From a virus, in IMG/VR virus record IMGVR_UViG_3300017991_002192, positions 22,759-86,758 of that record: 64,000 nt of DNA. One strand, 5' to 3'. Shown here in pieces: positions 3,001 through 37,673 of the stretch. Position numbers and translations under genes: made by a program. Positions within the stretch are counted from its first letter, which is position 1; each line of letters opens with the position of its first letter. A model generated the notes under the pieces. It did not search any database, was not told where the DNA came from, and worked only from the letters and a program-made list of their open reading frames with translations.

Positions 3001-3461
3001 AATTCCTCAACGACATCGCGCCGCATCGTGGCCGTCACTCGCTTCGGCCGACCAAGATGCGTCAGAACCTCATCCCCCTCACAGATGTCCTCGATGGCCT
3101 TGACCGTGCCATCTGCCATTGTGATGAGCGTCCCAGGAATGAAACAGTTGTTGTTGATGAATTTGTCGCACTCAGGTATGACCCGGTAGTCGGTCCACTT
3201 CCGGTTGATCCGGCGTCCCGTGTTGGGATCGAGGACTGACCCGAGCTTGACGTTCGGGACTTCTTCCACGTCCACGGACGCGACGATCGTGGCGTGTGTC
3301 AGCAGATACCGATGGGGGTCGAAGTTTTCCCCGAGGATCTCGCTGGCCTTCTCGACCAAATTCGCATCAGACCCGCCGCTTGCCGTGCGGATCTTGCTCC
3401 AACCGCGTCCCGATATGGCGGGCTCGACGGTCTGAGCGTATGCGTACTTGAGGAAAGCCAC
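1..3461 (-). CDS. Prohead-protease-like protein with two inteins (3' end outside window)
   Basis: The reading frame opens with GTG at 3461, directly after the stop of the upstream gene, and is still open at position 1 (1153 codons). Two inteins interrupt it. Removing them leaves an extein of at least 307 residues. The extein contains F-I-G-A-Q-N-F-C-E-H, with His at mature residue 130, then I-E-S-G-K-M-R-T-L-S-M-G-C with Ser at mature residue 181. This matches the His and Ser region of phage prohead proteases (U35/assemblin-like), where the Ser follows an I-x-x-G-x-L stretch. After the second intein comes a zinc-type cluster C-T-K-C-G...L-C-N-H and then I-E-A-S-W-V-A-T-P-A-F. The position after the giant head proteins and portal fits a capsid-maturation protease that would cleave scaffold and internal proteins. 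The family assignment is inference from motif and context. The inteins are very clear. Confidence 0.62.
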   Translation of the reverse strand, partial: MAFLKYAYAQTVEPAISGRGWSKIRTASGGSDANLVEKASEILGENFDPHRYLLTHATIVASVDVEEVPNVKLGSVLDPNTGRRINRKWTDYRVIPECDKFINNNCFIPGTLITMADGTVKAIEDICEGDEVLTHLGRPKRVTATMRRDVVEELREIKPRGTTERLYVTAEHPFYVFRENACVNCGSPARQHVSWNARCISHLIGKFYCSSECYYAKRVPKRELLEEKRGEFVEAKDLTDRDFTASPVLRGAKDVGLTLGQARLIGLFLAEGYYEQDSRNDNERVGAIWAFHKDEAPTLARLVRDLMKREFGVECVIRPHKNDNGIHVTTRTHRDAAAFFTKWVRGSGSKTKTLHPDLLFASADIQMEIARGWLEGDGCFQDTRTEKKPGDIRLTGDTSNRSLASQMQIILQRLGISSHLTRIESPGRKRLIVDGEIKIVNDPEKPRNVSWALACGGAWVEDLVQDTVYEEPYLAAVEERGGLQAAPKLRFLNGYHLQIIENLDTIAYAGPVYNFDVEDDHSYVANGVAVHNCDAWARPVLMKSYRTFIGAQNFCEHLQKEEESKGRIIDAVARDIGPSVYIDILLATDRRHTGLVRDIESGKMRTLSMGCFLAGTQVSLQDGQRVAIEEVVPGDMVLTHKGRFREVLNTQIRTYRGELRRIKAVGVSSTIQATANHGFEVLRAPKTCACGCGEPLGETSSITRRTTRRFKRGHDKRIYNPNNTYSLAEARRRKQQITDLKALRFEKVRADELEVGDFLCFPKVRFHLQTKGWTVGKARLAGYFLAEGSYLKHKGEHVEVQFNFSMEEKDTYVREVVELLKEEFPEANEPWVQDRPSRNTCVVHMTGRDAVAWFYKHCGEYSHGKRVSFEAMHVPAELHRHLVGAWINGDGTLGKDNKTLSGTTTSYALACQLHLLLTRCGVFVRMECAQNGRAIELAEAVGAGWMPDPETGKRPAITLAVGLSSAQQLRGYSDKVGRPSEAQQQLRVLDDHVVFPVTSVESGWYEGPVYNMEVEEDHTYVVEGVAVHNCSVTETICTKCGNVGADETELCNHVRFEKGNYFYDDKGNKHRVAELCGHPTLANGGVNFIEASWVATPAFGGAVARNILTPTGMSPEMLRQAQRVLSEPPPQWLDGLAKAASKEPPSDFSEAIQ
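375..1631 (-). other. Intein 2 of the prohead-protease-like gene (419 aa, LAGLIDADG type)
   Basis: The intein starts at Cys611 of the precursor (C-F-L-A-G-T-Q-V) directly after S-M-G, two residues past the presumed catalytic Ser. It ends V-A-V-H-N before Cys. Block F is V-Y-N-M-E-V-E-E-D-H-T-Y. The LAGLIDADG motifs are L-A-G-Y-F-L-A-E-G and L-V-G-A-W-I-N-G-D-G. A C-A-C-G-C-G-E ... R-G-H element near its residues 72-100 is also found three times in the free endonuclease at 36597-37664. The block V-L-T-H-K-G-R-F is shared with the portal intein. Confidence 0.93.
1866..3146 (-). other. Intein 1 of the prohead-protease-like gene (427 aa, LAGLIDADG type)
   Basis: The intein starts at Cys106 of the precursor (C-F-I-P-G-T-L-I, block A) after N-N-N. 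It ends V-A-V-H-N before a Cys, the normal splice nucleophile. Block F is V-Y-N-F-D-V-E-D-D-H-S-Y. Two LAGLIDADG helices are visible: L-I-G-L-F-L-A-E-G-Y and I-A-R-G-W-L-E-G-D-G. A Cys-rich insert (C-V-N-C-G ... C-Y-Y-A-K-R) resembles a small zinc finger. All splicing residues are present, so it should be active. Confidence 0.93.
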
Positions 3462-3995
3462 CTAGCCCTCCAACCCGGCGTCCATTGGTTTGATCAAGAA
3501 GAGACACCTATGACAGGCCAGAAGCCTTTCAGTGATGCCGTTGCGTCGTTTGTAGCGAGCCATCCCCATCGACCCTTTGCATCGTGGGCAGATGTATTCG
3601 CCAGTCTCAATCTCCTCTTGTGTGGGTCGGTACTGGCGATCTCGTGCGGCCCAATAGAGCGCCTTCTTGACGTATGCTTCCGCAACCCGGCGCACGCTAG
3701 ATTGCTTGTTTGCCGGGCCTGCGCTGACAGGAACCGTACCCGCACCGCCTGGAACTTGACTGTGCTCGGTCTTCGGCGGCGCATACGGAGTCCACTTGTC
3801 CAGCCGGACCACATCCTCGACCGGCTTACGAGTCCACCCCGTGGCAAATTGCAGATCGAGCATTCCGATCGCAGGCCAGACGGCAACGACGCGGCCTACA
3901 TCGGTATCCTCGCCGTTGAATAGCCTGACAGAATCCCCCACGGTGAATTCCCGTGTGGTCTCCTGCCAATTCACATCGTCTGACCTGCGTTCCAT
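3462..3995 (-). CDS. Hypothetical protein with SH3-like N-terminus and zinc ribbon
   Basis: This 177-residue protein starts at ATG 3995, ten bases after the stop of the preceding gene. Residues 17-60 (V-G-D-S-V-R-L-F-N-G ... G-R-V-V-A-V-W-P) read like a small beta-barrel of the SH3/KOW kind. The C-terminal third has C-P-R-C-K-G and C-H-R-C, a four-cysteine zinc ribbon. A Pro/Gly/Ala linker separates the halves. I do not recognise a named family. It is followed immediately by the protease start and probably belongs to the head-morphogenesis operon. Confidence 0.7.
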   Translation of the reverse strand: MERRSDDVNWQETTREFTVGDSVRLFNGEDTDVGRVVAVWPAIGMLDLQFATGWTRKPVEDVVRLDKWTPYAPPKTEHSQVPGGAGTVPVSAGPANKQSSVRRVAEAYVKKALYWAARDRQYRPTQEEIETGEYICPRCKGSMGMARYKRRNGITERLLACHRCLFLIKPMDAGLEG

Positions 3996-4004
3996 GCAGA
4001 TCGC

Positions 4005-4478
4005 CTACTCGGCGCCGTCAAGTGCAGCTTGAAGCCCCTGAAGCTTGGCGATCATCCGGCTGGCAACTACGGAGGCTGCCTTCGCATTGGAGAACAACCC
4101 TTGCTCCTGCCAGTTGCGAAGCTCGTTGTACTCCTTCTGGAGAAAGTTGCCCTTCATGTAAGGCTCATCGGGCTCCGTCTGCGGGGGCGTGTTGTCCTGC
4201 TTGCCGATCTCGGCAGGGTTGAACGGCTGCGACGGACCCTTGTTCGTGTTGTCGTCGGAACCTGGCGCTGTACCCTCTCCTGTGCCTTGCTGGTACGCCT
4301 CTTTCTCCTGGCCGGTCAGACGGCCAATCTCGTCGGAGAGCAGATCACAGCGATAGGCAAAGTCGAGCGCAATCTTCTGCGGAACCCCCAGGGATTCGTG
4401 ATTGTGCTGGAAGAGATTGGCAATACGATCAAGGTCATCCGTGACCTTTTGGGCAGCCTCACGAGTCAGCGTTGACAT
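4005..4478 (-). CDS. Possible internal in-frame translation product (157 aa)
   Basis: Within the 1523-residue gene, codon 1367 is ATG (M-S-T-L-T-R-E-A-A-Q) preceded by GAGAGG at a 7-base spacing, a strong Shine-Dalgarno sequence. Translation from here would give only the C-terminal 157 residues: a helical start, a low-complexity Gly/Thr/Asp/Pro middle and a helical end. In-frame nested starts that make scaffolds are known in phage head operons (lambda C/Nu3), and a protease gene lies just downstream. A chance ribosome-site match cannot be excluded. Confidence 0.4.
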   Translation of the reverse strand: MSTLTREAAQKVTDDLDRIANLFQHNHESLGVPQKIALDFAYRCDLLSDEIGRLTGQEKEAYQQGTGEGTAPGSDDNTNKGPSQPFNPAEIGKQDNTPPQTEPDEPYMKGNFLQKEYNELRNWQEQGLFSNAKAASVVASRMIAKLQGLQAALDGAE

Positions 4479-7400
4479 TTGTTTTCCTCTCTTTGAGACG
4501 AAAAAGGGTTCGACAGCGCGGACAGAAGGCTGCCCCGCTGCTAATACGTGCCTACTATCAAGCGAAAAACGAGAATTTCGTCCCTCTTTCTTCCGTTCCG
4601 CACTTTCAAAGTCTCCTTCTGGAGTTTCAGGTTCGGATCGGAGGAAATTCGGGTTCTTCGTTTCCAAGAATCGTTGAATTGCGCGGTCTGCATGCGACTT
4701 TGAAGGCTTCCCAATTTCTTTGGTCACAAAGTCGTTGAGAGCCCGCAAATACTCCAACCGCATGTCCAAAACAGGGCTTTCCTCGGGAGAATCTGAATCT
4801 GCCAGTCGGACCCTTTCTCCATCTCGGAGAGTCCACGCTGGAAGTTTCAAACTACCGGAGGAAGTCCGAGTTTGCGCCATCGGAACATCCGGTTTTAGGT
4901 ACTTCTCGATGAGTTTCTGCCACCAAGACTTTCCAGTAGCTTTTCGCGCCGTCTCGGCCACATACTTGGCGTCTCGGGCCTTCTTCTTCTCTCCGGCTTC
5001 TTCCAGTCGGGAGCGGATGAGGCGGTCCACGACGGTCATGTTGTCTACGGCCATGTCGATGATGGCCTGGCGCAAATGCCGCTTCTTCTCTTCTGGGAGC
5101 GCTGGCGTCTCCTCGGTGCCTACGAGGTACTCATCCATCCCCGGCATGGTGTCCTTGACGGACCGAGCCAGGTTGGCGTCATCGAGGCTCTGCATCGCAG
5201 AGTGGACCGACTTCTGGCCCTCCGCGCTGTAGAAATCCTCGACGGGACCTAGTAACAAGTCAATTTTGCCCGCCTTCGCCATCGCTCGCGCAACCTCCGC
5301 GAATCCCTCATTCACTTCGCGGCCCGGGATCTGCGGCAGCTTGTCTTCCTCGCGTTCATCAACGAGCGCAGCCAGGGCGATGCCATCGAGGATGCGGTTT
5401 AGCTCCTTGGCTTCGGGGCTCTCGGGATCGACGTTCTCCAGCCGCTCTTGAATCTGGGAGGCAGCAGCCGTCCTCATCTGCTGGGGCAACTCCTGGTACT
5501 TCTCGAAAGCCTGGAGCCCTCGCTGACGGGTTCCAGCGTCGTCCAGAGCAACCTGGCCGACCTTCTGTCCGCCGATCGTGAACGGGTCTGCGATCAACGT
5601 CTGTGCCGCCATCGCGCGTGCTGTGGCGCGTCCGATGTCCTCGGGGCTGCCCTCGTAGGATGGTTTCTCCAGCGCCTCCATGGACTCCCTGAGAAGCAAG
5701 GGCGGAATCCGTTGTGCGCCGGTTGCCGGATCTGTCTCGATGCGGTTCTTGATGTCTCGGTACTCGGCCTGGACAGCCTCGACGTACTTCTCTTTCTCCT
5801 CTAGATCGAGCCCTTCCAGGGCCGGGCCCAGCTTGTCCATGACATCCGAAGGGACTTCCTTCGTTCCGAAGATCCGTGCAGTGGACGACACCGCTGCCTT
5901 GTTCGCCTGATGCTTCGCCTTCTCACGTTGCTCATGTCGCTGGACGACGCGCGTGGCTTGGATGGCTTCCGCGATCTGGTCTCCCTTCGCGTGCGGATCG
6001 TCCATTTCATCGATGCGCTCCTCGAATTCCTCCAAGGACGCCTCTGCCGGAGCTAGAGCCGTTGCTGCATCGAGGTTCTCTTCCTGCTGCATGAGATGGA
6101 GATGGCGCTCGACGGCACCGATGACATCCTCGTACTTCTCCTCTTCCATCCCCTCCAGTTGCTTCTTGAGCACGTCCTTGACCTTCTTCGGGATGACGTA
6201 CTTGGAGTCGCCCGACAGGTCGCGCACGACTTCTTGCATCTTGTCGATGGAGTCGGTGACCTTGCGCTTCTTACCGCGTTGCTTCTGCTTGTCCTTCTTG
6301 ATCACCGCGTTCGCGTGAGCCTGCTCGACCACTTTCTGAGCTAGCTCATCGGCTTTGAGCGCTCCCGCGAAGTCATAGTCGGCCAAATCCTCTAGCGCCC
6401 GCTCGGCCTTCTGGACAGCCTTCGGCCCATCTATCGCGAGCGTCTTGGCTCGTGAACCGTAGCTCTGGAGAGCGCTGTTGAACGTTTTGATCTGCTCCGC
6501 GTCCATGTTCTCCAGCGCTGTCGTGATCTCCTTGCGCACGGCTGGAGGGAGCGAAGCACCTGCGATGTTGGATTTCAGAGAATCCGCAACGCCCTTCACG
6601 GTGTCTTTGACAATCTTCTTGCGTGCGACCGCTTCGGCGTCGGGCGATGGTTTCTTCCCCTTGTCTGGCGGAGGCTCATCCTTTATGTCTTTCCAGAGCT
6701 TCTCGCCTTCTTCCCCGACCTCAGCCTTGTCCTTCTTCGACTTCTCTTCCTCGGGCTTCTTTTCCTTGGGCTCGGGGTCCTCTAGGAATTCCTGCCAGGT
6801 CTTTTCCGTGTCCGGGTTCTTCTCTTTGTACTGGTCAAAGAGCTTCTTGGCGGCTTCCTCGCTCTTGGCCTTCTGCCAGGCTTGCAGGTAGAGAGCCGCC
6901 ACGTGTTTGTAATTCAGGCTGCGATCCTTGTCCTCATCCGCCCGGTCTCCCTTCAGATCCTCATCCTCTTCCTCGATGCGATGTTTTCGAAGGTCGTGAC
7001 GGGGCGGCTTCTTCTTGGGATCGGGACGGAGCAGTTTCCTGATCTGCTCCTCTTCTTTCTCGGCCTTGCTCTTGGTCGCCTCGCGCCCAAACTCGGGCGT
7101 CCCGTAGGGAGGCAGCAAACCCTGCTCCTGCAAGTGAGGAGCCGCCTCGGGAATCGTCACATCCCAGCGTCCATCACCGCCCGGCGACAACACGGCTCCG
7201 CCGTGTTCACGAATCTCCCGGCTCATGCGCTCCCACAACGCACTAAAGTCAGCCGGAACACCCTCGTTCCAAACCTCATCCGCAGCGTCACGCCAAACAC
7301 TGCGTGAGACCACGCGATGAAGCATCTCGGGCGAAATCGCGTAAATGGTTCCGGTATCCGTGCCCACTTCGGCCGCTGTCTTGGCCGCAACGCGCCGGAA

Positions 7401-8576
7401 CCCTTTGTGCCAACGCACTGTCCGCTTCCCCTGGACTGGCCGATCCAGCTTCACATACGGGATGCCCTTCTTGTCCACCACAGTGCCGGTGAACACGTCC
7501 ACCGTCATGAACGGCCCCACCTGATGCCATTCCACACGATCTCCGAACCGGACCCCGACTTCCTTCATGGCACGCTCGGCATCTCCGCGCAGACTCTTCC
7601 TCGCCTCACTCTTCGCCTTGTCGGACAACCGTTTGATCACCGGGTAGGCTTCCCGGTACTCGTCACTCGACAGAAACTTGTTCTTACCGCCGTACTCCCG
7701 GCTTTTCTTCTTCACCCACGCCATAGCCTCTTCGTAGTTGCGGAATTTCGGGGCGGCTGCCGTCTTGTCCAGATTCGTGAGAACGGTGCCGTCCTTCCTG
7801 TACTCGTCCTCCAAGTGAGGAACGAGATACTGGCTTCGCAACGTGCTCGGCTCGTGCCCGACAATTTCGGCCGTCTCCTTCAACGCTCGATTAAATTCGT
7901 CTTTGAGAATGCGGTCACGCTCCGTGCGAGCCTTCGGCAGCTTCGATCCCTTGCTCCTGACCTTCTTTAGCTGCCCAAGCATCTCCTCATTGGCATGGAG
8001 CCCTCGCAGATCCTTGGCCGTGATGCCTTCGGGCAGATAGGCATTGATGTCCTTGGCTGTGATGCTCGCGTCATCTGTCGTGAGGATCTGCTCGTCTGGC
8101 TTCTTGCCCTTCGTGATCTCCTTGAGCAGCTTGACCGCAGCCGCGTCGTTCACGATCTTCTTCTGCTTGACGCCAGACTTCCCGACGTAACTCAGCGTGG
8201 CCTTGTTGCCAGAGAACGTGACGTGCTTCTTGAGCCAGCCAGTAACACCGAAATGACCATCGTCGGCGCTGTCCTCGTTACCCGGACGCTCGTAAGTGTG
8301 ATCAATGAGTGCGACCGCCAGAGCGGTCAGTCGGGTCTTGTCATCCTTGCTCTTGAGATCGCTCTTGACCTTCTTGATCAGGTCGCTCCGGCGTTGTCGG
8401 AGCTTCTGGATGCGCTCGGCCTTGTCCTTGTCCCGCAACGCAACCTGCCGTTCGCTGTACTCGTAGACGGTCGTATCTTCACCGTCTTGGTTCTTGACGA
8501 CCTTCTTGCCCTTGTACTTGGTGTCCTGAGAGGCTCGGTACAAGGCCGCAACTTGAAGCACGGAATAGTCGCTCAC
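4005..8576 (-). CDS. Giant head-region protein with N-terminal DNA topoisomerase IB domain
   Basis: This 1523-residue protein starts at GTG 8576, which overlaps the upstream stop as GTGA. Residues 80-260 form a topoisomerase IB catalytic domain. R97 lies in E-R-P-G-N, K133 in Y-V-G-K-S-G, R191 in T-A-K-D-L-R, H241 in I-V-G-H and Y250 nine residues later, the same His-to-Tyr spacing as vaccinia topoisomerase. The enzyme should nick and rejoin DNA through a 3'-phosphotyrosine, relaxing supercoils. Residues 340-400 look like an SH3-type barrel. From about 500 on the protein is highly charged (Lys/Glu) and helical. A V-A-A-L-Y motif occurs at residues 8-16 and again at 558-567, each before a new module. 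Its place between the head proteins and the protease suggests a virion-internal protein. The fusion is unusual. Confidence 0.82.
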   Translation of the reverse strand: MSDYSVLQVAALYRASQDTKYKGKKVVKNQDGEDTTVYEYSERQVALRDKDKAERIQKLRQRRSDLIKKVKSDLKSKDDKTRLTALAVALIDHTYERPGNEDSADDGHFGVTGWLKKHVTFSGNKATLSYVGKSGVKQKKIVNDAAAVKLLKEITKGKKPDEQILTTDDASITAKDINAYLPEGITAKDLRGLHANEEMLGQLKKVRSKGSKLPKARTERDRILKDEFNRALKETAEIVGHEPSTLRSQYLVPHLEDEYRKDGTVLTNLDKTAAAPKFRNYEEAMAWVKKKSREYGGKNKFLSSDEYREAYPVIKRLSDKAKSEARKSLRGDAERAMKEVGVRFGDRVEWHQVGPFMTVDVFTGTVVDKKGIPYVKLDRPVQGKRTVRWHKGFRRVAAKTAAEVGTDTGTIYAISPEMLHRVVSRSVWRDAADEVWNEGVPADFSALWERMSREIREHGGAVLSPGGDGRWDVTIPEAAPHLQEQGLLPPYGTPEFGREATKSKAEKEEEQIRKLLRPDPKKKPPRHDLRKHRIEEEDEDLKGDRADEDKDRSLNYKHVAALYLQAWQKAKSEEAAKKLFDQYKEKNPDTEKTWQEFLEDPEPKEKKPEEEKSKKDKAEVGEEGEKLWKDIKDEPPPDKGKKPSPDAEAVARKKIVKDTVKGVADSLKSNIAGASLPPAVRKEITTALENMDAEQIKTFNSALQSYGSRAKTLAIDGPKAVQKAERALEDLADYDFAGALKADELAQKVVEQAHANAVIKKDKQKQRGKKRKVTDSIDKMQEVVRDLSGDSKYVIPKKVKDVLKKQLEGMEEEKYEDVIGAVERHLHLMQQEENLDAATALAPAEASLEEFEERIDEMDDPHAKGDQIAEAIQATRVVQRHEQREKAKHQANKAAVSSTARIFGTKEVPSDVMDKLGPALEGLDLEEKEKYVEAVQAEYRDIKNRIETDPATGAQRIPPLLLRESMEALEKPSYEGSPEDIGRATARAMAAQTLIADPFTIGGQKVGQVALDDAGTRQRGLQAFEKYQELPQQMRTAAASQIQERLENVDPESPEAKELNRILDGIALAALVDEREEDKLPQIPGREVNEGFAEVARAMAKAGKIDLLLGPVEDFYSAEGQKSVHSAMQSLDDANLARSVKDTMPGMDEYLVGTEETPALPEEKKRHLRQAIIDMAVDNMTVVDRLIRSRLEEAGEKKKARDAKYVAETARKATGKSWWQKLIEKYLKPDVPMAQTRTSSGSLKLPAWTLRDGERVRLADSDSPEESPVLDMRLEYLRALNDFVTKEIGKPSKSHADRAIQRFLETKNPNFLRSEPETPEGDFESAERKKEGRNSRFSLDSRHVLAAGQPSVRAVEPFFVSKRGKQMSTLTREAAQKVTDDLDRIANLFQHNHESLGVPQKIALDFAYRCDLLSDEIGRLTGQEKEAYQQGTGEGTAPGSDDNTNKGPSQPFNPAEIGKQDNTPPQTEPDEPYMKGNFLQKEYNELRNWQEQGLFSNAKAASVVASRMIAKLQGLQAALDGAE

Positions 8577-11500
8577 GGCCGTTCCTCCTTCAGAATCTTC
8601 ACAATCTCATCGTCCGTGAGCCCCTTATCCAACTCCTCCCCGATGATCCTGATCAACTGCTCAATCATCTTATCCATCGCGGATTCGGACTTGGACTTCT
8701 CTTCCGAAGCCATCACCACCTTACTCACGGCATCCCAAATCTGACCCAGACCAGGAAGAGCACTCGTGCTGACTGGAAGCACCGCCGAAATGCCTCCTGC
8801 CTGAGCAACACTTTCGGCTGCTTCGTAGGCCAGGAATCCCTCATCAGCAAACTGGTTCATGGCCTTGATGCCGATGTGCAGGCTCAGGCTATGCCCGAAC
8901 GCTTTAGCGCCGGCCAAGGCCACTCGCCCAATCGCTCCGCCTGCCGGCCTTCCGGTGGTCATGGCTAGAACCGTCCCTGCCACATACACACCGACTCCAT
9001 AAAGAGTCTTTGCCTCTGCCTTCGTGGGAGCGCGTCGTTCTTTCGCCAGCGTGGCGAGGATGCGCGGAGTCTCCTTGAAGATTGCCTTCAACTCGGCTTT
9101 GCCGGACTGGATGACCGCGGTCTTGATCTTTCCAGGGGCTTCCTTGATCGTCTTGGCGGCTGCTTTGGTCACGTCATCGCGATAACTCTTGTCCACGATG
9201 AATTTCTGGACCTTCTCGGGAGCTTCGCGAACCGATTTGGCGACCGACTTGCTGAGCCCCTTGATGCTCGTGAACACGTGGTCGAGCTTCTGCCGGACCG
9301 TTTTCTTGGGCTTTGGAGCCTTCCCCTTCTCGGGCTGGACAATCTCGTGTCGCTTCGGATCGGCTTTGGGGTGCTTGCGCTTGTACTCTTTCCACGCCTC
9401 CGGCGTGAACCGCTTGGCGAGGTACATCCGGGCGACCTTTGCCGGCATCCCAGGAGGGTCTTCACCCTTGATCACGACCGTGTCGAAGATCGACTTGTGG
9501 GGCTCCGGCAGATTGCCGAGGAGGTGCATGGCAAGCGCCTCACAGAAGTGCTCCTCCCTATTCGTACTGGCGTAAGGGGTCGGAAACTGCCCCCGTTTGG
9601 CTCGGCGCTCCAAAAACTTCCAGTACTCCCGCTTCTTGATCTTGGCGTCACGTCCAGTTGGCTTGTGCAAGACGTGGATGAAGCGATCATCGATATCGGT
9701 GACTATCGGAGGACCCCCGCGCCTCATGCCCTGCATGGGGATCGGAAGAGGCTCACCAATCTCAGGTAGATCTGTGGGTCTAGACCGCTCGTACTGCCCA
9801 AGCCCGTACTTGATCATCGAGTGGTGATTCGCCCATTTCGTCTTGACATCGCGAGACATGATCTTGTCCCAATAGCGATGCCCCAACTCATGCAGGAAAT
9901 TGTGAAGCTCGCCCTCTCCCACCTTGATATGCGGTCGTAGGTAGAGCTTGTCGTCATTCGGGTTGTACCAGGCCAACGTTCGCGGCTGACCGCCCGTCTC
10001 CCGCACGGTGTTGTGGACCTTGAACGGCCCGACCGTAAACAAGTCCTCTGCTCCCCCGATGCCATTCTCAACCTTGTCCGGCCACCCGGCTGCGTCTACC
10101 AAGTAGCGATACTTGCCCTTGTTCTTCTCAAGCCACGCGACGATGTCTCGTGGAGGCCGCTTGGCCGCAGAGAAGGGCCGTGCCGACAACTCAAACTTCT
10201 TCGCCTGGCCTCGCGGAATCGATTTGGTTTGAAGCAGGTACTCGACCCAGAGCTTGGCAGCCCGAAGCATGTGCGGCCAAATGACCCGGCCGCTAGACTT
10301 GAGACGCATGAGCAACGACCGAATGTCGTACTCGTCCAGACCTTTGAACCTGTTGGCCAGGAAATCGGCCCGCGATACCCCGCCCTTTTGCAGATCCTCA
10401 TCGACGCTACGGTTGAGAAGCTCCCATTTGCCCATCAGGTCCCCGAGCAGCTTGCTCATGGGAGCGCGGGCAACCAGATGCCGAATCGCTACCCGCTCTG
10501 CCATGCGGGCGGTCTTGTGTCGCGCTGCTACCCTCTTGGAAGACGGCAATCTCGTTGGCGGCAAGACGAGCTTGTTCTGCACACGCTTCCACAACTCACG
10601 CACTGCCCGTTGCCACCGCTTGCGGTCGTATTCCCACAGAGTCGCGAAGAACGGATGCGTGGCAATGGGGTCGCCCTTCTTGAGAACCCGGCCTTTCGAC
10701 TTGATCGGCCGCGGGTTGCCTACAAACTGGTCAAACTCCTTCTTCTTGGGTCGGGGGTCCTTCTCACCACCAACCACCCGCATGGTGCGAACCTCATCCA
10801 AGAACGTCTCCTCGCTCTGACCGAGCCACGTGAAAAACTCCTGCGGCAGTAGGTAGTACTGTAGATTCTTGGGAACGTCCTCATAGAGCGCAAAGCTGCC
10901 AACTTCGTACTCCTTTGGCGCACCTCGGCTCAGCGACTTGCGGATGTGTTCTTGCTCTTTCGGGCTCAGCTTCTCCCAGCTCTTGCCGCGCTCCAGAATC
11001 TTCCTCTCCATCAACTCCGCTTCAAACTGGAAGAACATCTGCTGGACCATGTGCCGAAGCTCATGCTTGATGATCGTGTCCATGGTCCGAGCAGCTTCGC
11101 GGTACTTGAAGATCTGGTCAGGCGCTCTACCGTGCAGCAGAATCCTCAACTTCTTGGTGTTGCCGTTCCACGTGCCGTGGACAGCGCGTTCTCGCGGAGC
11201 GGGCTGGCCTGTAAACTCCACCCCGACGCGAATCTTGGGTATCTCCTGCTGCAACTGCTCGATCGGGTAGTTTTTCGGCATCCCCCCCAGGTCCGTCACG
11301 AAGTCACGCTTGGACTTTTTCCGACCACGGCCCTTCGCACCATCGCGGATGGCTTCCTTCAGAATCTTGCTCGCTTTGTCGATGCCTTCTTGTCGTACCT
11401 CGATACGATCCTTGAGCCGCTCAATCTCTCTTGGAGTCGTTGCCTCCTTGAGATCAGCCTTGAATTCCTTGATATCCTCCTTGTGCCCCTTGATTTCCAC

Positions 11501-11620
11501 ACGGGCTCTCGTTGCAGCCCATGTGGCATATAGCGACTTCACCCAATCGAGGATCTCCTGTCGCATCTTTGGCGGGTAGGCCAAGATGCCGGCGACACGC
11601 ATGGGAGTCGTCACTTCCAC
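8573..11620 (-). CDS. Giant head-region protein with two metallopeptidase-like domains
   Basis: This 1015-residue protein has a GTG start at 11620; an alternative ATG is at 11602. Residues 183-196 contain H-E-L-R-H in a helix and residues 574-588 contain H-E-L-G-H, followed by E-E-H-F-C-E-A at 689-695. These are two zinc-peptidase-type HExxH sites, the second with a plausible third ligand. A short R-V-A motif occurs at the N-terminus (8-15), at 376-384 before the second domain, and at 728-734. The last copy is followed by E-A-W-K-E-Y-K-R-K-H-P-K-A-D-P-K-R-H. The end (about 855-960) has alanine/glycine-rich hydrophobic segments that could enter membranes. It is probably a virion protein. Whether the domains cleave peptide bonds is unknown. 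Confidence 0.75.
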   Translation of the reverse strand: MEVTTPMRVAGILAYPPKMRQEILDWVKSLYATWAATRARVEIKGHKEDIKEFKADLKEATTPREIERLKDRIEVRQEGIDKASKILKEAIRDGAKGRGRKKSKRDFVTDLGGMPKNYPIEQLQQEIPKIRVGVEFTGQPAPRERAVHGTWNGNTKKLRILLHGRAPDQIFKYREAARTMDTIIKHELRHMVQQMFFQFEAELMERKILERGKSWEKLSPKEQEHIRKSLSRGAPKEYEVGSFALYEDVPKNLQYYLLPQEFFTWLGQSEETFLDEVRTMRVVGGEKDPRPKKKEFDQFVGNPRPIKSKGRVLKKGDPIATHPFFATLWEYDRKRWQRAVRELWKRVQNKLVLPPTRLPSSKRVAARHKTARMAERVAIRHLVARAPMSKLLGDLMGKWELLNRSVDEDLQKGGVSRADFLANRFKGLDEYDIRSLLMRLKSSGRVIWPHMLRAAKLWVEYLLQTKSIPRGQAKKFELSARPFSAAKRPPRDIVAWLEKNKGKYRYLVDAAGWPDKVENGIGGAEDLFTVGPFKVHNTVRETGGQPRTLAWYNPNDDKLYLRPHIKVGEGELHNFLHELGHRYWDKIMSRDVKTKWANHHSMIKYGLGQYERSRPTDLPEIGEPLPIPMQGMRRGGPPIVTDIDDRFIHVLHKPTGRDAKIKKREYWKFLERRAKRGQFPTPYASTNREEHFCEALAMHLLGNLPEPHKSIFDTVVIKGEDPPGMPAKVARMYLAKRFTPEAWKEYKRKHPKADPKRHEIVQPEKGKAPKPKKTVRQKLDHVFTSIKGLSKSVAKSVREAPEKVQKFIVDKSYRDDVTKAAAKTIKEAPGKIKTAVIQSGKAELKAIFKETPRILATLAKERRAPTKAEAKTLYGVGVYVAGTVLAMTTGRPAGGAIGRVALAGAKAFGHSLSLHIGIKAMNQFADEGFLAYEAAESVAQAGGISAVLPVSTSALPGLGQIWDAVSKVVMASEEKSKSESAMDKMIEQLIRIIGEELDKGLTDDEIVKILKEERP

Positions 11621-14600
11621 TTCTTGACCACCAGATCCGTGAGCTTTCGGGGATCGTCAGCCAGCTTCGGGTCAGCCAGAATTAGCTCGCGAGCTAACGG
11701 TTTGATGCGGCTTCGCTCTGGCGGCGGCAGCATCAACTCGTCAATGACTCTCTTGTTGTCCACCGGAGGCTTGATCAGCCTGTCTGCAAACTTGCTCGCC
11801 TCATCCTCTGGCATCCTCACCGTGGTCTCGCGAAGCCACTGCCGTTGTTTGGGCGTGAGGAAGTGGAGCGGTGTGTTCGCTGGGAGACCGAGATCCATGA
11901 GATCGAGGAGAAGCTGCACCCGTCGGTCGCGCTTGAGTTGGTTCGCCATGAACGTGGCGAACGGTCGCTTCTCCTGAATCATCTCGCTCACCACGTCGAG
12001 CAGCCCAAGCTCCTTCATCTGACGTAGTGACTTGCGGGCGGTAGGCTCCTTGAGAATGTCTCCGACCAAGATGTTGCCGATGGCCTCCCAGGGCATCTGC
12101 TTCATCTTCCGTGCGTTGCGCTTGATGGAAGCCGCTACGTCTGGCGGGATCTTGAAGCCGTACTTCCCCGTAAACTTAATGACCCTCAACATGCGCGTGG
12201 GGTCATCTGAGAACGTCTTGTTGGGGTCGGCCGGGCATTTGACCGAACGCTCTTTCAGGTCTTTCAGACCACACCCCGTAAGATCGATGATCTCGGCCTT
12301 GTCTGGCCCCTTCGCCAAGTCCAGCAGGCGCCACATCAATGTATTCATTGTAAAGTCGCGCCTTCGTATATCCTGCTCGATGGTCGCCGGTTGTACCTCC
12401 GAAGGCTTGTAGCCTTTCCCCTCACCCTTGGCGTAGGACTCGCTACGGGCGTTGGCGATCTCTATGACCTCACCCTTCATGTTGTCGCCATCTAGCTCCC
12501 AATCTCCGCTCACAGTGAGGATGGCGACCCCGTACTGATTCGTCTTGAGGTTTGTGGCTGCTGGGATCCGACGCGCTAACTCCTTGGCAAACCACTCGGA
12601 GTCGCGCCCGGCCGACATGGAGTCGATCACGAGATCCAGATCCTTGATCGGCCGCTCGATGACGAAGTTTCGTACCGCGCCACCCACCACGTAGACATGC
12701 TTCGCTACGCCGAGGCTCCTCGCAGTCTCGGACAGAAACTTCATCAACGCGATCGAGCGTCGGTGCGCACTCAGAGCCAAGTGCTGGGAAGCCACCCGAC
12801 CAATGAAGATCTCCGGCTCCTGGTCTCCTTCCAAAGTATCTTCACCACGGAAAGTCTCATCATGGATGACCGAGACCCGAGCTTGGAGCCTCTCTGCCAG
12901 GTCTTCTGAACGAAGCGTGGCGTGCTCGCCGAACCCCTTGGAGTCCTCACAGACCCCCAGCAACTCCTTGCGGTATGCCTCCAGGTGCGCGGGACCTTTC
13001 CCTTCTTTCCACAGCCGCGCCAACGCATGCCACAGATCGTCGCTCCAGAACATGATCTCGTTGGGTTTCTTCCCCAACCACTCGGCAAATTCGATGAGCC
13101 ACTGGTTCAACGGCTCCGACTTGCTTCCGTAGTTGAAGCTCCCGTCCTCCAGAATCGGACCCATCACGAAATTCCATGCCTCTTCTAGCTCTGTCCGGGT
13201 CGCCGGTCGGCCCCAGGCAAGCAGATACTCTCGGTCCACATCCCGCATGGCGTCACCCAGGATGTCCGCGGGACGATCCCCGCCATAGAGCGCCCCTTCG
13301 TTCGGGTCCGTGCCTGGGATGGCGTTCATCAAGCCACCCTTGTCGACTGGCGGAGGGTTGATGCCCGGCTTGCCCGGCTGAATCGCCCACCATCCAGCCG
13401 TCTTGAGCCTGTACTGGAAAGCCACGCGCATTACGGGCGGAGCGATCTTCAGGAACGACGCCACGTCCTCGTTCCACTCCGTGCTATCCACAACGGGTCC
13501 GGCTTTGGCAACTCCCAACAACCGCGCGGCTTCGGCTACGAGATCCTCCGCCGTCACTTCCTCATCCTCCTCTTCGGCCCGGTAGAGCACGTCGGGATTC
13601 AGCGCCAGCCAGCTATCGCTTGGCTTGGCTGTCTTCAAAGAGGGATCTGCCCTAGCGTCTGGTCCTTCCAAGGGAACCAAGCTGTCCTGGTCCTCCCAGT
13701 CCTCAATGCCTTCGTCATCTCGCACCAGAACATCTGGATTGAGGATGTCGTATCGCTCCAACTTCAAGACAACGCCATCCTTCCAAGATCCGTCTGTATA
13801 AGGGCCGATCTTCACGCGCTGGCCTGGATAGAAACACTCTCCATCACCAGCGCACTTCTTCTCTCCCGCCTTTCCGTCGATCTCCCATTGCCTACAGACC
13901 TCTCCCTTCCCGTCCCCTTTGGTGGACCACTCCTTGAAGTGCGGCTTGCAAAACCACGCATGGCCGATGCCCTCAGCCCAGATACACTCGATCTCTGGAG
14001 CCTTCTTGCAGCCCTTGTGCATGCACTGGCTCACGGAATGGCGTGCGATCTTGATCTGGGGCAGAATCGTCTTGAGCCACAACCGAACCTCCGGCAGTAC
14101 GGTGCGTGGTCCGTAACCGACGAGCATGCCCAGAGCCTCGCAAAACGCTTCCTCCTTATTCTTGTGGGCGTATCCCGTGATCGGCTTGCCGTGGACCCGA
14201 AACTTGGCCGTGCCGCCTTCTGCGAGGTACTTCTTCAAGTCATCCATGCCCAAGACGTAATCGAATACGCGCTTGGTCTCCGGCATGTGCCACAGCCCTT
14301 GGATCTGAAGATAAAGTAACGGGTTCTCTTTCTTGATCCGTTCGTTATCGTAGAGAAACTTGTCGCCTCCGTACCTACGAGCAACTTCGTTGAGATCAAG
14401 CGTTCCGTAGTTTCCTGAAATCGCCCGAGACCAGAAGTCTTGAGCGGTTTTGCTCAAGTACGTCTTGTAGACGTGGTGCCCCATCTCATGCGCAATGGTC
14501 TTAGCCAGCGCGCCTGGATTTCGCTCCGCCGAAGTAGGATTGATGGAGATGTGGTCGTGCTCGTAGACCCCCGCTTCATCGAGCCTCGCACGGAAATCGA

Positions 14601-16143
14601 CAACCAACGGAAGCTGACCGCGGAGCAGAAGCGGAAGCGCTTGTCTGGCACGCTGTTTGTAGCGTTTCAGACCTACCTTAAATCGTTCCAAAAAGTCGGC
14701 GTACATCTCAGAGGAGTCGGTCGGAAAACCTCTGATTGTTACCGGAAGACCCTCAATGCTTACCCGCTCCTCTTCAGGGATATCCACGCCCAGCGGTGTT
14801 TCAGAGATTCGCGAGTACCACTCCGCAAAGTCCTTGAGCACACGCCATGCTTTGCGCGCTGAGCGACGCACACGCCCTTCCCACTTTGGAAGCTCGCGCT
14901 GTAGCTGCGCAAACAGCCCCTCTCTAGACGCCCTCGGATCATACTTGACCACAAATTCGTAGCGCTCTAGAGGAACACGAAAGTCGAGATGCAAATCCCA
15001 GACCTCGTGCCCGATCTTCTTGTCCCAATAGTCTGCATCACCTTGGGTAATTCGCCTCTGAAATCTCAGGTCTTTGATTGCCTTGCGAAGACGATCAAGA
15101 ACGAAAAGCTCAAACCGATCACTCCAAGTCTGGACCGCCTCTTTCCACTTCAACGCCTGTTTATAGTCCTTCACGACCTTGGCGTTCTTCATCAGCATCA
15201 AGAAGTCCTTGCGAAACTTCTCGATCTGCCGTAGGTCAAGTGGCTGAACGCGAGCCAAGTACTGCCTGGCAACACGTTTGGCAATTTCCCCATGGACCTC
15301 GACTCCGAGCGGACGACCTTGTTCCTTCTGTGTGTCGCTCCAGACACGCCCGGTGAAGTACCCGCTGTCCTCGAATAGCGACCGCACTGGCCCGTTGAGA
15401 AACGTCTCCTCATCTCTGTTGTCCGGCCAGAGCACAAATCGATGGTTGTCCGCTGCATCCCAACCCGACTCCGCGACAAACGCTGACTTCTGCCAGTGGG
15501 AGAACGTGCCATCAAAGTCAAGCTGCGCCTTCGTGGGGATGTCCCGAGGACTCCTTTTCTGAGCACCCAGCTTGCTCTGGAGTGCGGACCCAAACTTGAC
15601 TTTGTGGACCTTGGGCAAGCCCCACACTTCCATTTCATCAAACTCCCACGTACCGGTCGGCACGTCCCCCTTGTACGGCTTGTCAAACCCAGGCGTGTAA
15701 TCCAACGTGACGTGCGGCATGTAGACGGGAAACGAGTCCTTGACCTCGAAACCCGCTTCCTCCAAGCGATTCTTCACCCGGTCCCGTAACTCAGCCATCG
15801 GCTGACCGAATTTCACGGCCACGTGAGGAACGATCCGCCCCTTGTCGGTGTGCTGGAAGTAGTTGAGATCGCCCAGCGTGGCCTTGACCCTGGGCCAGCC
15901 CTCGCCCTGGAACGCATCGCTCAAAACCCTCAGAAAGTCAGCTTCCCGGTCCTCCGAAACGTCACCTACGAACAGGAAAGTGGTGTGCGGTGGCGAACGG
16001 TCCTCAGTGCCGAGTGACGGAAACTGCCTGGCGAGAGCGGCGGGCAGCGGAATGAACAATCCCACGCTGTCCCGGTAGCCAGTTTTCTTGCCATTCGCCT
16101 GCCGTTGCAGGTAACGTTTGGCGATTTTGGCGGCTGAGAACAT
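11611..16143 (-). CDS. Giant head-region protein: 2H phosphoesterase, metallopeptidase-like and CCA-adding-type domains
   Basis: This 1510-residue protein starts at ATG 16143. Residues 23-185 form a 2H phosphoesterase (LigT/2'-5' RNA ligase type) with H-T-T-F at 53-56 and H-V-T-L at 144-147. Residues 545-675 hold H-E-M-G-H (552-556) and K-E-E-A-F-C-E-A, a zinc-peptidase signature. Several Cys pairs follow at 707-770. Residues 1130-1510 are a class II CCA-adding/poly(A)-polymerase domain with V-G-G-A-V-R-N, D-L-D at 1168-1170, R-R-R-D-F-T-M-N-T-L and D-D-P-T-R-M-L-R-V-I-K-F. R-V-A-x-x-Y-L-type motifs lie at 7-13, 290-296, 906-912 and 1116-1122. The RNA-end-processing activities suggest tRNA or RNA repair, perhaps injected with the DNA. 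That role is inference; the folds are clear from motifs. Confidence 0.82.
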   Translation of the reverse strand: MFSAAKIAKRYLQRQANGKKTGYRDSVGLFIPLPAALARQFPSLGTEDRSPPHTTFLFVGDVSEDREADFLRVLSDAFQGEGWPRVKATLGDLNYFQHTDKGRIVPHVAVKFGQPMAELRDRVKNRLEEAGFEVKDSFPVYMPHVTLDYTPGFDKPYKGDVPTGTWEFDEMEVWGLPKVHKVKFGSALQSKLGAQKRSPRDIPTKAQLDFDGTFSHWQKSAFVAESGWDAADNHRFVLWPDNRDEETFLNGPVRSLFEDSGYFTGRVWSDTQKEQGRPLGVEVHGEIAKRVARQYLARVQPLDLRQIEKFRKDFLMLMKNAKVVKDYKQALKWKEAVQTWSDRFELFVLDRLRKAIKDLRFQRRITQGDADYWDKKIGHEVWDLHLDFRVPLERYEFVVKYDPRASREGLFAQLQRELPKWEGRVRRSARKAWRVLKDFAEWYSRISETPLGVDIPEEERVSIEGLPVTIRGFPTDSSEMYADFLERFKVGLKRYKQRARQALPLLLRGQLPLVVDFRARLDEAGVYEHDHISINPTSAERNPGALAKTIAHEMGHHVYKTYLSKTAQDFWSRAISGNYGTLDLNEVARRYGGDKFLYDNERIKKENPLLYLQIQGLWHMPETKRVFDYVLGMDDLKKYLAEGGTAKFRVHGKPITGYAHKNKEEAFCEALGMLVGYGPRTVLPEVRLWLKTILPQIKIARHSVSQCMHKGCKKAPEIECIWAEGIGHAWFCKPHFKEWSTKGDGKGEVCRQWEIDGKAGEKKCAGDGECFYPGQRVKIGPYTDGSWKDGVVLKLERYDILNPDVLVRDDEGIEDWEDQDSLVPLEGPDARADPSLKTAKPSDSWLALNPDVLYRAEEEDEEVTAEDLVAEAARLLGVAKAGPVVDSTEWNEDVASFLKIAPPVMRVAFQYRLKTAGWWAIQPGKPGINPPPVDKGGLMNAIPGTDPNEGALYGGDRPADILGDAMRDVDREYLLAWGRPATRTELEEAWNFVMGPILEDGSFNYGSKSEPLNQWLIEFAEWLGKKPNEIMFWSDDLWHALARLWKEGKGPAHLEAYRKELLGVCEDSKGFGEHATLRSEDLAERLQARVSVIHDETFRGEDTLEGDQEPEIFIGRVASQHLALSAHRRSIALMKFLSETARSLGVAKHVYVVGGAVRNFVIERPIKDLDLVIDSMSAGRDSEWFAKELARRIPAATNLKTNQYGVAILTVSGDWELDGDNMKGEVIEIANARSESYAKGEGKGYKPSEVQPATIEQDIRRRDFTMNTLMWRLLDLAKGPDKAEIIDLTGCGLKDLKERSVKCPADPNKTFSDDPTRMLRVIKFTGKYGFKIPPDVAASIKRNARKMKQMPWEAIGNILVGDILKEPTARKSLRQMKELGLLDVVSEMIQEKRPFATFMANQLKRDRRVQLLLDLMDLGLPANTPLHFLTPKQRQWLRETTVRMPEDEASKFADRLIKPPVDNKRVIDELMLPPPERSRIKPLARELILADPKLADDPRKLTDLVVKKWK

Positions 16144-16181: not shown

Positions 16182-19100
16182 CTAGAACCGTCCTCCGCCG
16201 CCTTCCTCCTTCGGCTCGTACTTGAGCCCAAGCCGCTTGGCGATCATCTCCGTGAAGTCGGTATCGTCAGCCAGCTTGGTTCCCACGCTGGAGTAGGCAC
16301 CGCGGAGAACCTCGTTGAACGTCGCGTCTTGGAAGGTCGCGAAGTCGCGCTCCAACTCCTCCGCCGCCGACTCTGGATCGATGTTGAGAAGGTCCAGAAT
16401 GGTCGAAACCGGGATCGAGCCTTTCGAGTAGAGGTTGTAGAGTGCGTCGTAGGTGTCCTGATTGTCCCGAAGCGCAAGCCGAGTAAAGCTCAGCTTCGGA
16501 TAGACGACCTGATCCCTGCCATTGACGGTCTCGATGAAGCCCATCCTCGCGCACATGGGCTTGAAGCAATACTCCTCGATGAGATCTTGAACGATCTCAC
16601 GCATGAGCATGTAGCGGACGTTGATGACCTCCAGATTGATGCGGTCGCCACTGTAGCTCGACTCGCCAGACAGCAACGACTCCGTGACCCCGAGCCCCGC
16701 GTAAAGCTCCCGGTTGATTAGCTCGTACTCTCCCGAAAGCTCCAAGAGACGACCCTGCGGTGTCATCTCTTCCCACGTCACCTGGAAGTTGGTGACGATG
16801 CTGTAGTCGGGATCTTGCAGCGCCAGATCGATCTGATCTCGGAGGGCCTCGGTCTGCGCTTGGTTCATATTCTCAGCGTAGACCAGGCGAATTGGAGTCA
16901 TATGACGCGATGCGATCGATGTCTGGGCTTGCCGACAGTTATGCAAAAGCAATCCACCGCCTGTATGCGACTCATCTTCTTCTACATCAAACGAATACAC
17001 CGTACCCGTGTATGGAATTCTCTCCACTCCAGTGATTCTTCGAGTCAGCCTATTATGATCAAACCGCGAACGCCAAGTATACTTTCGCTCAACCCACTCT
17101 GTTTCTTCTCCCTTAACTGAACCCCTACTCCACTCCCTAACACTAGAATAATCTGTGCTTCTCAGCGAATAATATGTTGCCTCCGGGTACGTGTATGTCT
17201 TCTCCCGCATCCCGGATTTTGTTTTCCAGCGGCGCGTTATCGAAGTTGCAGACCTCGTGCATTGCCCAACATACGACACAAGCCCCACACGATTGCACAA
17301 GAGATGTAACTGATCAATTAATGTAGCGTTTGCCAACTCAACAGAGATCTCGACAGTTTTATCGTTAGAAGGCAATCCAACCTTCAACGATCCGTCCGTA
17401 TCAAGTAGGCCACACAGCAACGCCTTGATTTGTTCATCTGCTAGCTCAAACACCCAAAAAGGCAACCGCTTAGTATAGCAGTCAACGCCCATCTCCTCGG
17501 CTACCCATCGTGCAAACAATTCATCCTCAACACGAACATAATGAATCGCACTCTCCGTGTCGTATTCCCCCATTACAGGGGTAAAATGCAGATTCTCATC
17601 GCTGATCAAATCTCCTGCAATGCGGGCGATCCGATCTCGTACTTTTAACGAAATGGCGTCGCCGCCGAACGACCACTCAACATAGCAGGTATTGAGAAAT
17701 CTACAATCGCTGTGCCATATTGCCCCATCACCCAAAAAAGCACCAAGCAAATAACACACGTCTTCCGTCAGAGGAACTTCGCAAAGACCCGAAGCCAACG
17801 TATGATACTGAGTCTCATCAGGAACCTCGGCGTCTGGGGGCGCGGGATGCCACGTAGTCTTGCGCGGACCTGCCCCTACTGGAGTTGTATCCATCCGCAG
17901 ACCCAAACGCTTTCTTAGTGTAAACGCGTAGTTCCTTAAGCGAACAGGAAATGCCAGTAACCTCAGAAAGAGCCTTGTAAGAAACCTGAGTAGGTCTCTC
18001 CAAATCTCTGAGCCATTCTAGCAATTTCCTCATTCCTTGTACGGCCCCGACACGATTGACATGATCCTGCGGAAAACTAAATGTTACATATAGAGTGTTG
18101 TCCTCTTCGCTTACCTCACAAACACTCAAGTGACGGTCCACAATACAAGTCTCCCCCCCGCAAAGACTTCTTCGTTGGACCGCAAAATGACGATTGCCCC
18201 ACCACTTTCTAAGATCAAACGTCCTCCGCCTATCCCCGTTATCAATCGAAGGCTCGCAAAGCTGCTGCCCCGGCCTCAACTCACCTGCTTCGATCCATCG
18301 CTCAACACCATCCTCCACAACCAACACTCGATGATCCCTCGTCACACAAAGCGGACGCCGGATTCCCTCCACCGCCAGAGCAACAATATCTTCTTCAATT
18401 TCCCGAGACCCGGTTATAGCCTTGCGAAATCTCCCCTTGTGCGTAAGTAAGAATTCCCCGTCTTGAATCGTCTCTACTCGGACCTGCTGCGGGATACCCT
18501 TTCTCCTCACCCAAACCAAGCAGCCCGGAAGCAGACACTTGTCCTTATAGACGAGCGTGCGAATGCAGCGCTCCAGACGAGAGTGCCCGCGGGGCTCGTA
18601 CTGGCTGCGCTTGTTCGCCATGTAGTAGCAGAACGACCCTGCCTTCGGATTCGTGTTGAGCGGGATGTTCTTGCCATCCGTAACCGCACTCACGACATCC
18701 GCAGGCATCGACTCCACAATCTCTTTGGCTCGTTCGTCGCCGTTGCCAGCCATCTCGATGATGGCCTTGGTCTTGGAGTCAGGGATTAGCTCGATGAGTT
18801 TCTCATCCGTAAAGGGAAAGCCCTCAAGATGAATCTGCTCCGGCGGAAGCACGCGGATCGCCGTCCATCCTTCGTAGTTTGCCTGCATCCAGTCGGCAGC
18901 GCGCTCGTCCGCGTTGTCGCGCTCCTCGGCTTGCTCGATCAGCTCCGCACCCTCCTCATCCGGCAAGACATACTTCCGCTCGACACGGATATCCTCGGGC
19001 ATCTCCGGGTTGCGGTCCTCAAAGAAGATGAAGACCTCACCAAGGAGGTTGTACTCGTGAACGATCTCGATCAGCCGATGCAACAACCCGATGTTCTTGC

Positions 19101-37664: not shown

Positions 37665-37673
37665 ATCACGACC

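Follow-up and report, generated by a model that had tools for sequence, protein, structure and literature searches.

We analysed 64,000 nucleotides of viral DNA (positions 22,759 to 86,758 of the IMG/VR record IMGVR_UViG_3300017991_002192; hereafter the window, numbered from its first letter), in which three giant proteins of 1523, 1015 and 1510 amino acids (aa) are encoded in the head-gene cluster of a tailed phage. The giants share a short motif, T1 (consensus PSAxRVAxR[YF]LxAR), with separate proteins, and it is found at N-termini, C-termini and the joints between modules. A second motif, T2 (consensus LRSKLIRLAHxNPxLRPHLLPLLK), is mostly N-terminal. One of the two tags per protein, in dozens of unrelated proteins, looks like an address label, most likely for loading into the head. 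We give a probability of about 0.6 to the reading that T1 and T2 are docking peptides which load proteins into the prohead, and that the giants formed by joining T1-bearing genes.

The 86.8-kb record which contains the window is, per segment, 99.8-99.995% identical to part of a 497-kb IMG/VR record, G002. It belongs to a tailed phage, as seen from its terminase, portal and head maturation protease genes. The closest match among named phages is the uncultured 485-kb phage LR745208.1 (terminase 48.8% identical over 92%), and 100% identical copies of the 1015-aa protein and of a 559-aa protein are encoded in a 372-kb record. The related set consists of ten records, which are not mutually independent (G002, LR745208.1, G006, G004, G003, G012, G005, G017, G016 and G014). 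The records were read as separate stretches with genes at the boundaries cut, and the 1523-aa protein is split in this way in G002. Gene starts were taken from a simple in-house caller, and a tag counts as N-terminal when it lies no further in than residue 40, or shortly upstream of the start given by the caller.

Tag motifs and their enrichment

The initial annotation had described an R-V-A-x-x-Y-L motif in the giants. As a simple pattern this motif has 20 matches in 606 called G002 proteins, while 200 shuffles gave a mean of 7.1 (maximum 13). In G002 many good copies are at protein ends. A first profile was made with 12 terminal copies as seeds. It scored 22 sites above 12 bits, its own seeds among them, versus 1.65 in shuffles. 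We then used a relatives-only profile of 29 distinct terminal tags from related phages, none of them from the window phage, which found five sites of at least 12 bits in the three giants versus a mean of 0.04 in 200 shuffles (maximum 2). Five of the 29 seed sites stem from homologs of the giants, and their removal leaves a 24-seed profile with six copies in the giants versus 0.045 expected (maximum 1). The copies exceed the expectation from shuffled proteins, so the motif is more frequent than chance, and the scan of this phage and its relatives gave 140 called proteins with T1 or T2 in the ten records.

The three giants are present as previously annotated:

4005..8576, minus strand: 1523-aa giant, topoisomerase IB and a long charged region (PF01028, 4.8e-24)
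8573..11620, minus strand: 1015-aa giant, two HExxH modules and a hydrophobic C-terminal module (from the sequence)
11611..16143, minus strand: 1510-aa giant, 2H phosphoesterase-like domain, HExxH module and CCA enzyme (from profiles, sequence and comparison)

Their T1 copies, and those of neighbouring smaller proteins, are as follows, with bit scores from the relatives-only profile unless the 24-seed or first profile is named:

16099..16140, minus strand: T1 at the N-terminus (residues 2-15) of the 1510-aa protein, ahead of the 2H phosphoesterase-like domain; 15.5 bits, 24-seed 16.8
15247..15288, minus strand: T1 at an interior joint (residues 286-299) of the 1510-aa protein, ahead of the metallopeptidase-like module; 16.4 bits, 24-seed 17.4
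13399..13440, minus strand: copy at residue 906 of the 1510-aa protein, weak and unsupported; 3.6 bits
12769..12810, minus strand: T1-like, at an interior joint (residues 1112-1125) of the 1510-aa protein, ahead of the CCA enzyme; 7.4 bits, weak to intermediate
10505..10546, minus strand: T1, 1015-aa protein (residues 359-372), in tandem with the next; 23.8 bits, 24-seed 24.4
10466..10507, minus strand: T1 at residues 372-385 of the 1015-aa protein, upstream of its second metallopeptidase-like module; 23.7 bits
9410..9451, minus strand: T1, 1015-aa protein (residues 724-737), before the hydrophobic C-terminal module; 19.5 bits
8526..8567, minus strand: weak T1, N-terminus of the 1523-aa protein, before topoisomerase IB; 3.2 bits
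6876..6917, minus strand: weak T1, interior of the 1523-aa protein (residues 554-567); 5.1 bits, homologous site in G006 13.1 (first profile)
4041..4082, minus strand: T1 near the C-terminus of the 1523-aa protein (residue 1503); 11.4 bits, 24-seed 12.8
28488..28529, minus strand: T1, C-terminus of the 222-aa protein (28485-29153); 22.3 bits
29103..29144, minus strand: T1, N-terminus of the 222-aa protein; 10.4 bits
33472..33513, minus strand: T1, N-terminus of the 108-aa protein (33217-33543); 21.1 bits, with the tag of a homolog included in the profile
3660..3701, minus strand: T1-like, middle of the 177-aa protein (3462-3995); 12.6 bits with the first profile, below 8 with the relatives-only profile

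Out of the nine copies first annotated in the giants, four are strong and stay strong under the 24-seed profile, four are weak, three of them with stronger counterparts in relatives, and the one at residue 8 of the 1015-aa protein is not the motif (-9.6 bits). The motif had been seen only in part; the T1 copies at residue 363 of the 1015-aa protein (23.8 bits) and residue 1503 of the 1523-aa protein (11.4 bits) were missed. The copies at 15247..15288 and 9410..9451 each lie 3 aa from a module joint. Just before topoisomerase IB, where the window copy is weak, T1 reaches 11.8-13.7 bits in G006, G003, LR745208.1 and G012 (first profile). Among the three separate proteins said to carry similar motifs at their N-termini, 33217-33543 and 28485-29153 do so, the latter at both ends, whereas 24516-26195 stays below 8 bits. 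The 222-aa protein 28485-29153 is encoded near the terminase and has homologs in eight related records; a T1-like N-terminus is visible by eye in most of eight aligned homologs. The T1-like site of the 177-aa protein can likewise be seen by eye in an alignment with eight homologs.

The initial annotation had also missed the second tag. T2 accounts for 121 of the 152 short similarities in a self-comparison of G002, and its regular expression has 0 to 0.6 chance matches per record by shuffle. There are four copies in the window:

23825..23905, minus strand: T2, N-terminus of a 245-aa protein
26448..26540, minus strand: T2, N-terminus of the protein ending at 26223
29436..29522, minus strand: T2, N-terminus of a 110-aa protein
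32703..32783, minus strand: T2, N-terminus of a 350-aa protein; predicted two-helix element

Structure prediction from an alignment of 27 tags gives T2 a helix at residues 3-13, a break and a second helix from residue 15 on, with a mean pLDDT of 86 for residues 1-10, 90 for residues 11-20 and 67 overall. Both tags are basic, with a mean charge of +2.5 for T1 and +2.9 for T2 versus +0.1 and +0.3 for random stretches of tagged proteins. A string search of the open-licence literature for six tag strings found no occurrence, though figures and other wordings may escape such a search, and among the matches listed in literature searches on targeting motifs in jumbo or huge phages there was none that names such a tag.

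Placement of the tags and the two-class rule

In proteins of at least 80 aa, 41 of the 59 T1 sites of at least 15 bits are terminal (14.0 expected), as are 54 of the 68 T2 sites (19.8 expected). At a threshold of 13 bits the ten records contain 94 T1 sites, with 36 N-terminal, 20 C-terminal and 38 interior. The 69 T2 sites are divided into 51 N-terminal, four C-terminal and 14 interior; this count keeps three sites which are chance-like by eye (LR745208.1 697-aa, G006 332-aa, 212-aa). The shuffled proteins of the ten records gave 2.4 T1 and 2.0 T2 sites in sum.

Interior sites tend to mark seams. Within 20 residues of an alignment-defined module joint we found 22 of 34 interior sites, compared to 10.1 expected (maximum 18 in 2000 draws); the alignments were unmasked and may end at the tag because the tag itself is shared. 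The other 12 sites are away from joints, including the tandem pair of the 1015-aa protein (62 and 75 residues from the nearest).

Proteins with several tags almost always carry one kind. Out of 19 such proteins 18 have a single kind and one is mixed, whereas 9.0 mixed proteins are expected when labels are shuffled within each record (minimum 3 in 2000 runs). As T1 and T2 are almost never found in one protein, there are perhaps two addresses. The sole mixed protein (G017, L139:11415-11705) is 96 aa long, has an N-terminal T2 and a T1 near its C-terminus, and could be an adaptor between the two classes.

A further segment, T3 (approximately EFxxExxxxYLxEHPxADPxxHTV), often follows T1 or T2 and has eight copies in 12 records, two of them in the window:

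9341..9409, minus strand: T3 segment right after T1 in the 1015-aa protein, common with the 559-aa protein
26064..26135, minus strand: T3 segment near the N-terminus of the 559-aa ferritin-like protein, common with the 1015-aa protein

Domain architecture of the giant proteins

Topoisomerase IB and the CCA enzyme (CCA/poly(A) polymerase head, 2.5e-19), both named in the initial annotation, are supported by profile matches. The 2H phosphoesterase match is weak in the window (0.0059), but the module can be aligned across relatives, and Pfam 2_5_RNA_ligase2 was found in three of the 94 tagged proteins scanned (best 4.2e-13; the scanned set is described below). The metallopeptidase-like modules are named from HExxH motifs in the sequence, with no profile match.

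The giants can be regarded as joined cargo proteins, a claim of the initial annotation which is well supported because their domains are separate or reordered in relatives, with the motif at ends or at the joint and some copies weak. The topoisomerase module is placed differently in relatives. The 2H module precedes the HExxH module in the window, CCA in G006 and topoisomerase IB in G003, G004 and G014, and in G005 it comes after CCA. The HExxH module of the 1510-aa protein is a standalone open frame of 459 residues in LR745208.1, with a weak N-terminal T1 (7.7 bits; this and the further scores on relatives' N-termini in this paragraph come from a profile trained on the window phage), and in G017 it starts a frame of 1470 residues right after an N-terminal T1 (20.2 bits). 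The second HExxH module of the 1015-aa protein has separate homologs in G004 (N-terminal T1, 21.3 bits) and LR745208.1 (9.9 bits), and the C-terminal module of the same giant is also found apart in relatives. A distant homolog in LR745208.1 has an N-terminal T1 of 22.0 bits. Exactly where the weak window copy precedes CCA, G006 has a T1 of 24.2 bits, and CCA homologs which begin a protein in G005 and G017 have a weak N-terminal T1 (5.6 and 6.8 bits).

Another example is the HAD domain. It is fused to topoisomerase IB with T1 in between in LR745208.1 and G012, and in G002 a gene of its own encodes it, with T1 at the C-terminus (12.3 bits, first profile). The G002 gene matches HAD_SAK with 25.2 bits, just below the family cut-off of 25.6, and is homologous to the HAD region of LR745208.1 (3.9e-25). 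We compared 337 distinct module pairs (at least 50 aa) between records; in ten of them T1 precedes the module in one phage and follows it in the other.

Head-gene neighbourhood and tagged proteins

Family searches of the head cluster were run on the window and G004. Besides the giants, the cluster in the window includes:

20340..22511, minus strand: terminase large subunit (phrog_2, 6.7e-26)
17818..19647, minus strand: portal protein, N-terminal part, interrupted (intein by eye) (phrog_16240, 3.8e-10)
3..3461, minus strand: head maturation protease with inteins, continuing past the window edge (phrog_18299, 2.5e-07; Intein_splicing, 3.9e-14)

As had been suggested, a protease gene comes after the giants, with one gene (3462-3995) in between. 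In G004 the intein-free protein after the 177-aa homolog matches head maturation protease at 6e-15. The gene order is terminase, two small genes, portal, tagged giants, 177-aa gene, protease, a very acidic gene, a 226-232-aa gene and a head protein. This order was seen in G002 and G004, and gene sizes fit in G006. The last gene of the G004 cluster matches major head protein (8.6e-48). The acidic, scaffold-like protein encoded after the protease has a net charge of -40 to -84 in seven of seven phages, with a similar C-terminus in all seven.

The homolog of the G004 major head protein in G002 (470046-470918) has an N-terminus which is loosely T1-like (KQRIISDYIKTAAGR); T1 possibly imitates an arm of the head protein, which is speculative. 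Short fragments resembling parts of this head protein are found at 288238-288600, 313898-314170 and 491415-491720 of G002. Besides the protease with its intein profile matches (3-3461), the portal (16182-19647) and the clamp-loader and helicase genes (35405-38414, 52292-55936) look interrupted by eye.

Tagged genes of the window (at least 12 bits, or T2) are confined to the stretch up to 33.6 kb, with eight of 23 genes versus none of 31 beyond (p = 0.0005), where both gene counts are approximate since the caller includes doubtful open reading frames. The stretch beyond 33.6 kb holds replication genes, named by eye from their sequences. Amid these an untagged gene (45191-46579) matches a Phospholipase B-like family (1.1e-11).

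To describe the tagged proteins we scanned 94 of them with at least 110 aa (31,774 residues), a set that leaves aside the 1510-aa and 1015-aa giants of the window. Pfam found 27 families in total, with topoisomerase IB in four proteins, HAD_SAK in three, and ART-PolyVal, LPD1, DnaJ, C70 peptidase, GNAT, ParB-like nuclease, a hydrolase and others in one protein each. Some tagged proteins have domains typical of injected effectors (ART-PolyVal, LPD1, C70 papain-like protease, GNAT and 2H), and others have DnaJ, topoisomerase IB or CCA domains. PHROGs matched 34 families, and among the 25 listed there is no head or tail protein by description.

Distribution of the tags

Both tags are present in eight of the related records (G002, LR745208.1, G006, G004, G003, G012, G005 and G017). 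In G016, of which 60 kb were read, only T1 was found, and in the 40 kb read of G014 only T2. Two outgroups have no terminal tags in the parts that were read, which amount to 40.9 kb for Rctr197k and 150 kb (approximately half of the genome) for Tunturi_5. Tunturi_5 has two interior T1 matches of at least 13 bits, which we take as chance (0.6 per shuffle).

A degenerate DNA pattern for T2 matched 30 stretches in 19 IMG/VR records, and also matched twice in one bacterial metagenome bin. Out of the 17 of these 19 records which were searched for a terminase, 11 encode one, with best stretches 55-60% identical to that of the window phage; the six without are 18-76 kb long. The DNA pattern for T1 matched three viral_contigs stretches. 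One belongs to G004, both others contain T1, and T2 is present in one of these two as well. This pattern uses a narrow codon choice, so the three matches do not settle how widespread T1 is. Two contigs of an Actinomycetota metagenome-assembled genome, RFZO01000033.1 (L147) and RFZO01000070.1 (L148), both have T2, and the former also has T1. They may be of phage origin and may hint weakly at the host.

Proposed mechanism and alternative explanations

We propose that T1 and T2 would act as short, basic, helical docking peptides and thereby as portable address tags. A protein with a tag at either end, or at a joint where two former proteins meet, would be captured during head assembly, probably via the acidic scaffold or inner shell, packaged inside the prohead and later injected with the DNA. 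Docking to a scaffold or inner shell is proposed because the tags are basic, the scaffold-like protein is acidic and T2 is predicted to be helical; we infer this binding, the packaging, the injection and the destination. The giants would be polyvalent effectors made by fusing genes which already bore T1, so that the tags now mark the seams. T1 and T2 would be separate classes, probably with two docking partners or two sub-locations. More tentatively, and at slightly less than even odds, we may be looking at a clade of megaphages with two-label cargo sorting, in which two near-exclusive tags send tens of proteins per phage to two docking sites in the head and giants arise by joining tagged genes.

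Several observations weigh against head loading. A single packaging route would need only one tag, T1 matches below the threshold (9.3-10.2 bits) occur in three genes beyond 33.6 kb, and tagged genes are scattered across the 497-kb genome. Among the 337 module pairs, T1 agrees in 20 (before the module) and 22 (after the module), is recognisable in one partner only in 81 (before) and 56 (after), and is found in neither in 67. T1 is therefore not obligatory, or drifts below the threshold. The label "effector" comes from few proteins, because few of the 94 tagged proteins have a known domain. The scaffold-like protein is named by position and acidity only, and its G004 homolog has no family match. 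Moreover, we found no virion proteomics for these uncultured phages.

The scattering of tagged genes over the whole genome would also suit addresses to a place other than the head interior, such as the tail, the host membrane, the nucleoid or an assembly site during infection, and so would the two classes, whose near-complete separation suggests more than one destination. The position of the giants in the head-gene cluster and the lack of tags at 12 bits or more on the replication genes of the window speak against this, and we consider another destination unlikely, while still the best of the alternatives. One candidate for such a place is the phage nucleus. Multisubunit RNA polymerase marks nucleus-forming jumbo phages. 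The beta subunit (PF00562) has no match in G002, while 14 of 14 control genomes were positive, which argues indirectly against the known nucleus type and makes nucleus import less likely.

The initial annotation had also considered protease processing. Here the tags would be cut by the head protease or by the fused metallopeptidases, freeing the enzymes before packaging or after injection. The interior copies at seams and the head maturation protease encoded beside the giants are in line with this, and so are two precedents in excerpts of earlier papers: zincin-like peptidases have been suggested to process polyvalent proteins (PMC5512222), and head proteins of giant phages and T4 are cleaved (PMC5694885). 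A cut at the 20 of 94 T1 sites near a C-terminus would, however, free next to nothing, and no residue is fixed after T2 across the 69 sites. Ten places past the start of [LVIM]R in the second half of T2 the residue is E in 18 of 69 sites, K in 13, T in eight and A in eight. Processing also leaves two kinds of tags unexplained, so we regard it as improbable.

Tags which are mere recombination seams, repeated because they recombine and without an address function, would explain why they are found at module joints and in many unrelated proteins. Small separate proteins are tagged too, in phages with terminase stretches only 55-60% identical, and multi-tag proteins keep to one kind in all but one case, which makes this very improbable. 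Degrons are not usually of such length, with conserved prolines like those of T2 or with interior copies, so a role in handing proteins to a host protease or chaperone hardly seems credible, even though the tags are short basic motifs at termini.

A giant phage has hundreds of unknown proteins, and which of them the virion carries is usually learnt only by mass spectrometry of a cultured phage. If the tags are packaging addresses, the injected proteome of uncultured megaphages could be read from the sequence, and new effectors of early infection could be selected by the tag alone. If head loading by T1 and T2 is true, multidomain injected proteins arise by fusion of genes which already carry an address.

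Comparison with known systems

The known systems are described here from excerpts of the cited papers. The inner head (ejection) proteins of the SPN3US/phiKZ type are numerous, are packaged with the genome and occur in large phages with a head protease (PMC5694885); they have long propeptides, and the excerpt mentions no counterpart of T1 or T2.

Encapsulation peptides of microcompartments are short terminal amphipathic helices which recruit unrelated enzymes into a protein shell (PMC12339742). Such a peptide has a terminal helix of approximately 18 residues and a linker, and T2 is predicted as two helices with a break. The shell is a different one, and our system is viral, with copies also at joints inside multidomain proteins.

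The T4 capsid-targeting sequence, to which the motif had been compared in idea, is a short N-terminal peptide which takes internal proteins into the prohead (PMC9958956, PMC5694885). A packaging tag of this kind remains the best-fitting reading, with its destination as the conditional part. Both systems have a head protease, and T2 is likewise a short N-terminal peptide common to unrelated proteins (51 of 69 sites). In contrast to the T4 sequence, which has about 10-20 residues, is N-terminal and is cut off, T1 is also C-terminal and interior, and there are two classes; the likeness is one of idea and not of sequence comparison.

Polyvalent proteins (Iyer et al. 2017, PMC5512222) are large and combine multiple enzymatic domains that are unrelated to each other, among them 2H phosphoesterases, peptidases and nucleotidyltransferases. 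Many are from portal-terminase phages, and they are thought to be packaged and injected. A shared address peptide at termini or between domains is not described for them in the excerpt, whereas here small proteins share the tags of the giants. Judged from their sequences, the giants resemble this known class. The 1510-aa protein joins CCA, 2H-like and HExxH modules, relatives join HAD_SAK and topoisomerase IB, the phage has portal and terminase genes (window and G004), and ART-PolyVal and LPD1 are each found in one of the 94 tagged proteins of the phage group.

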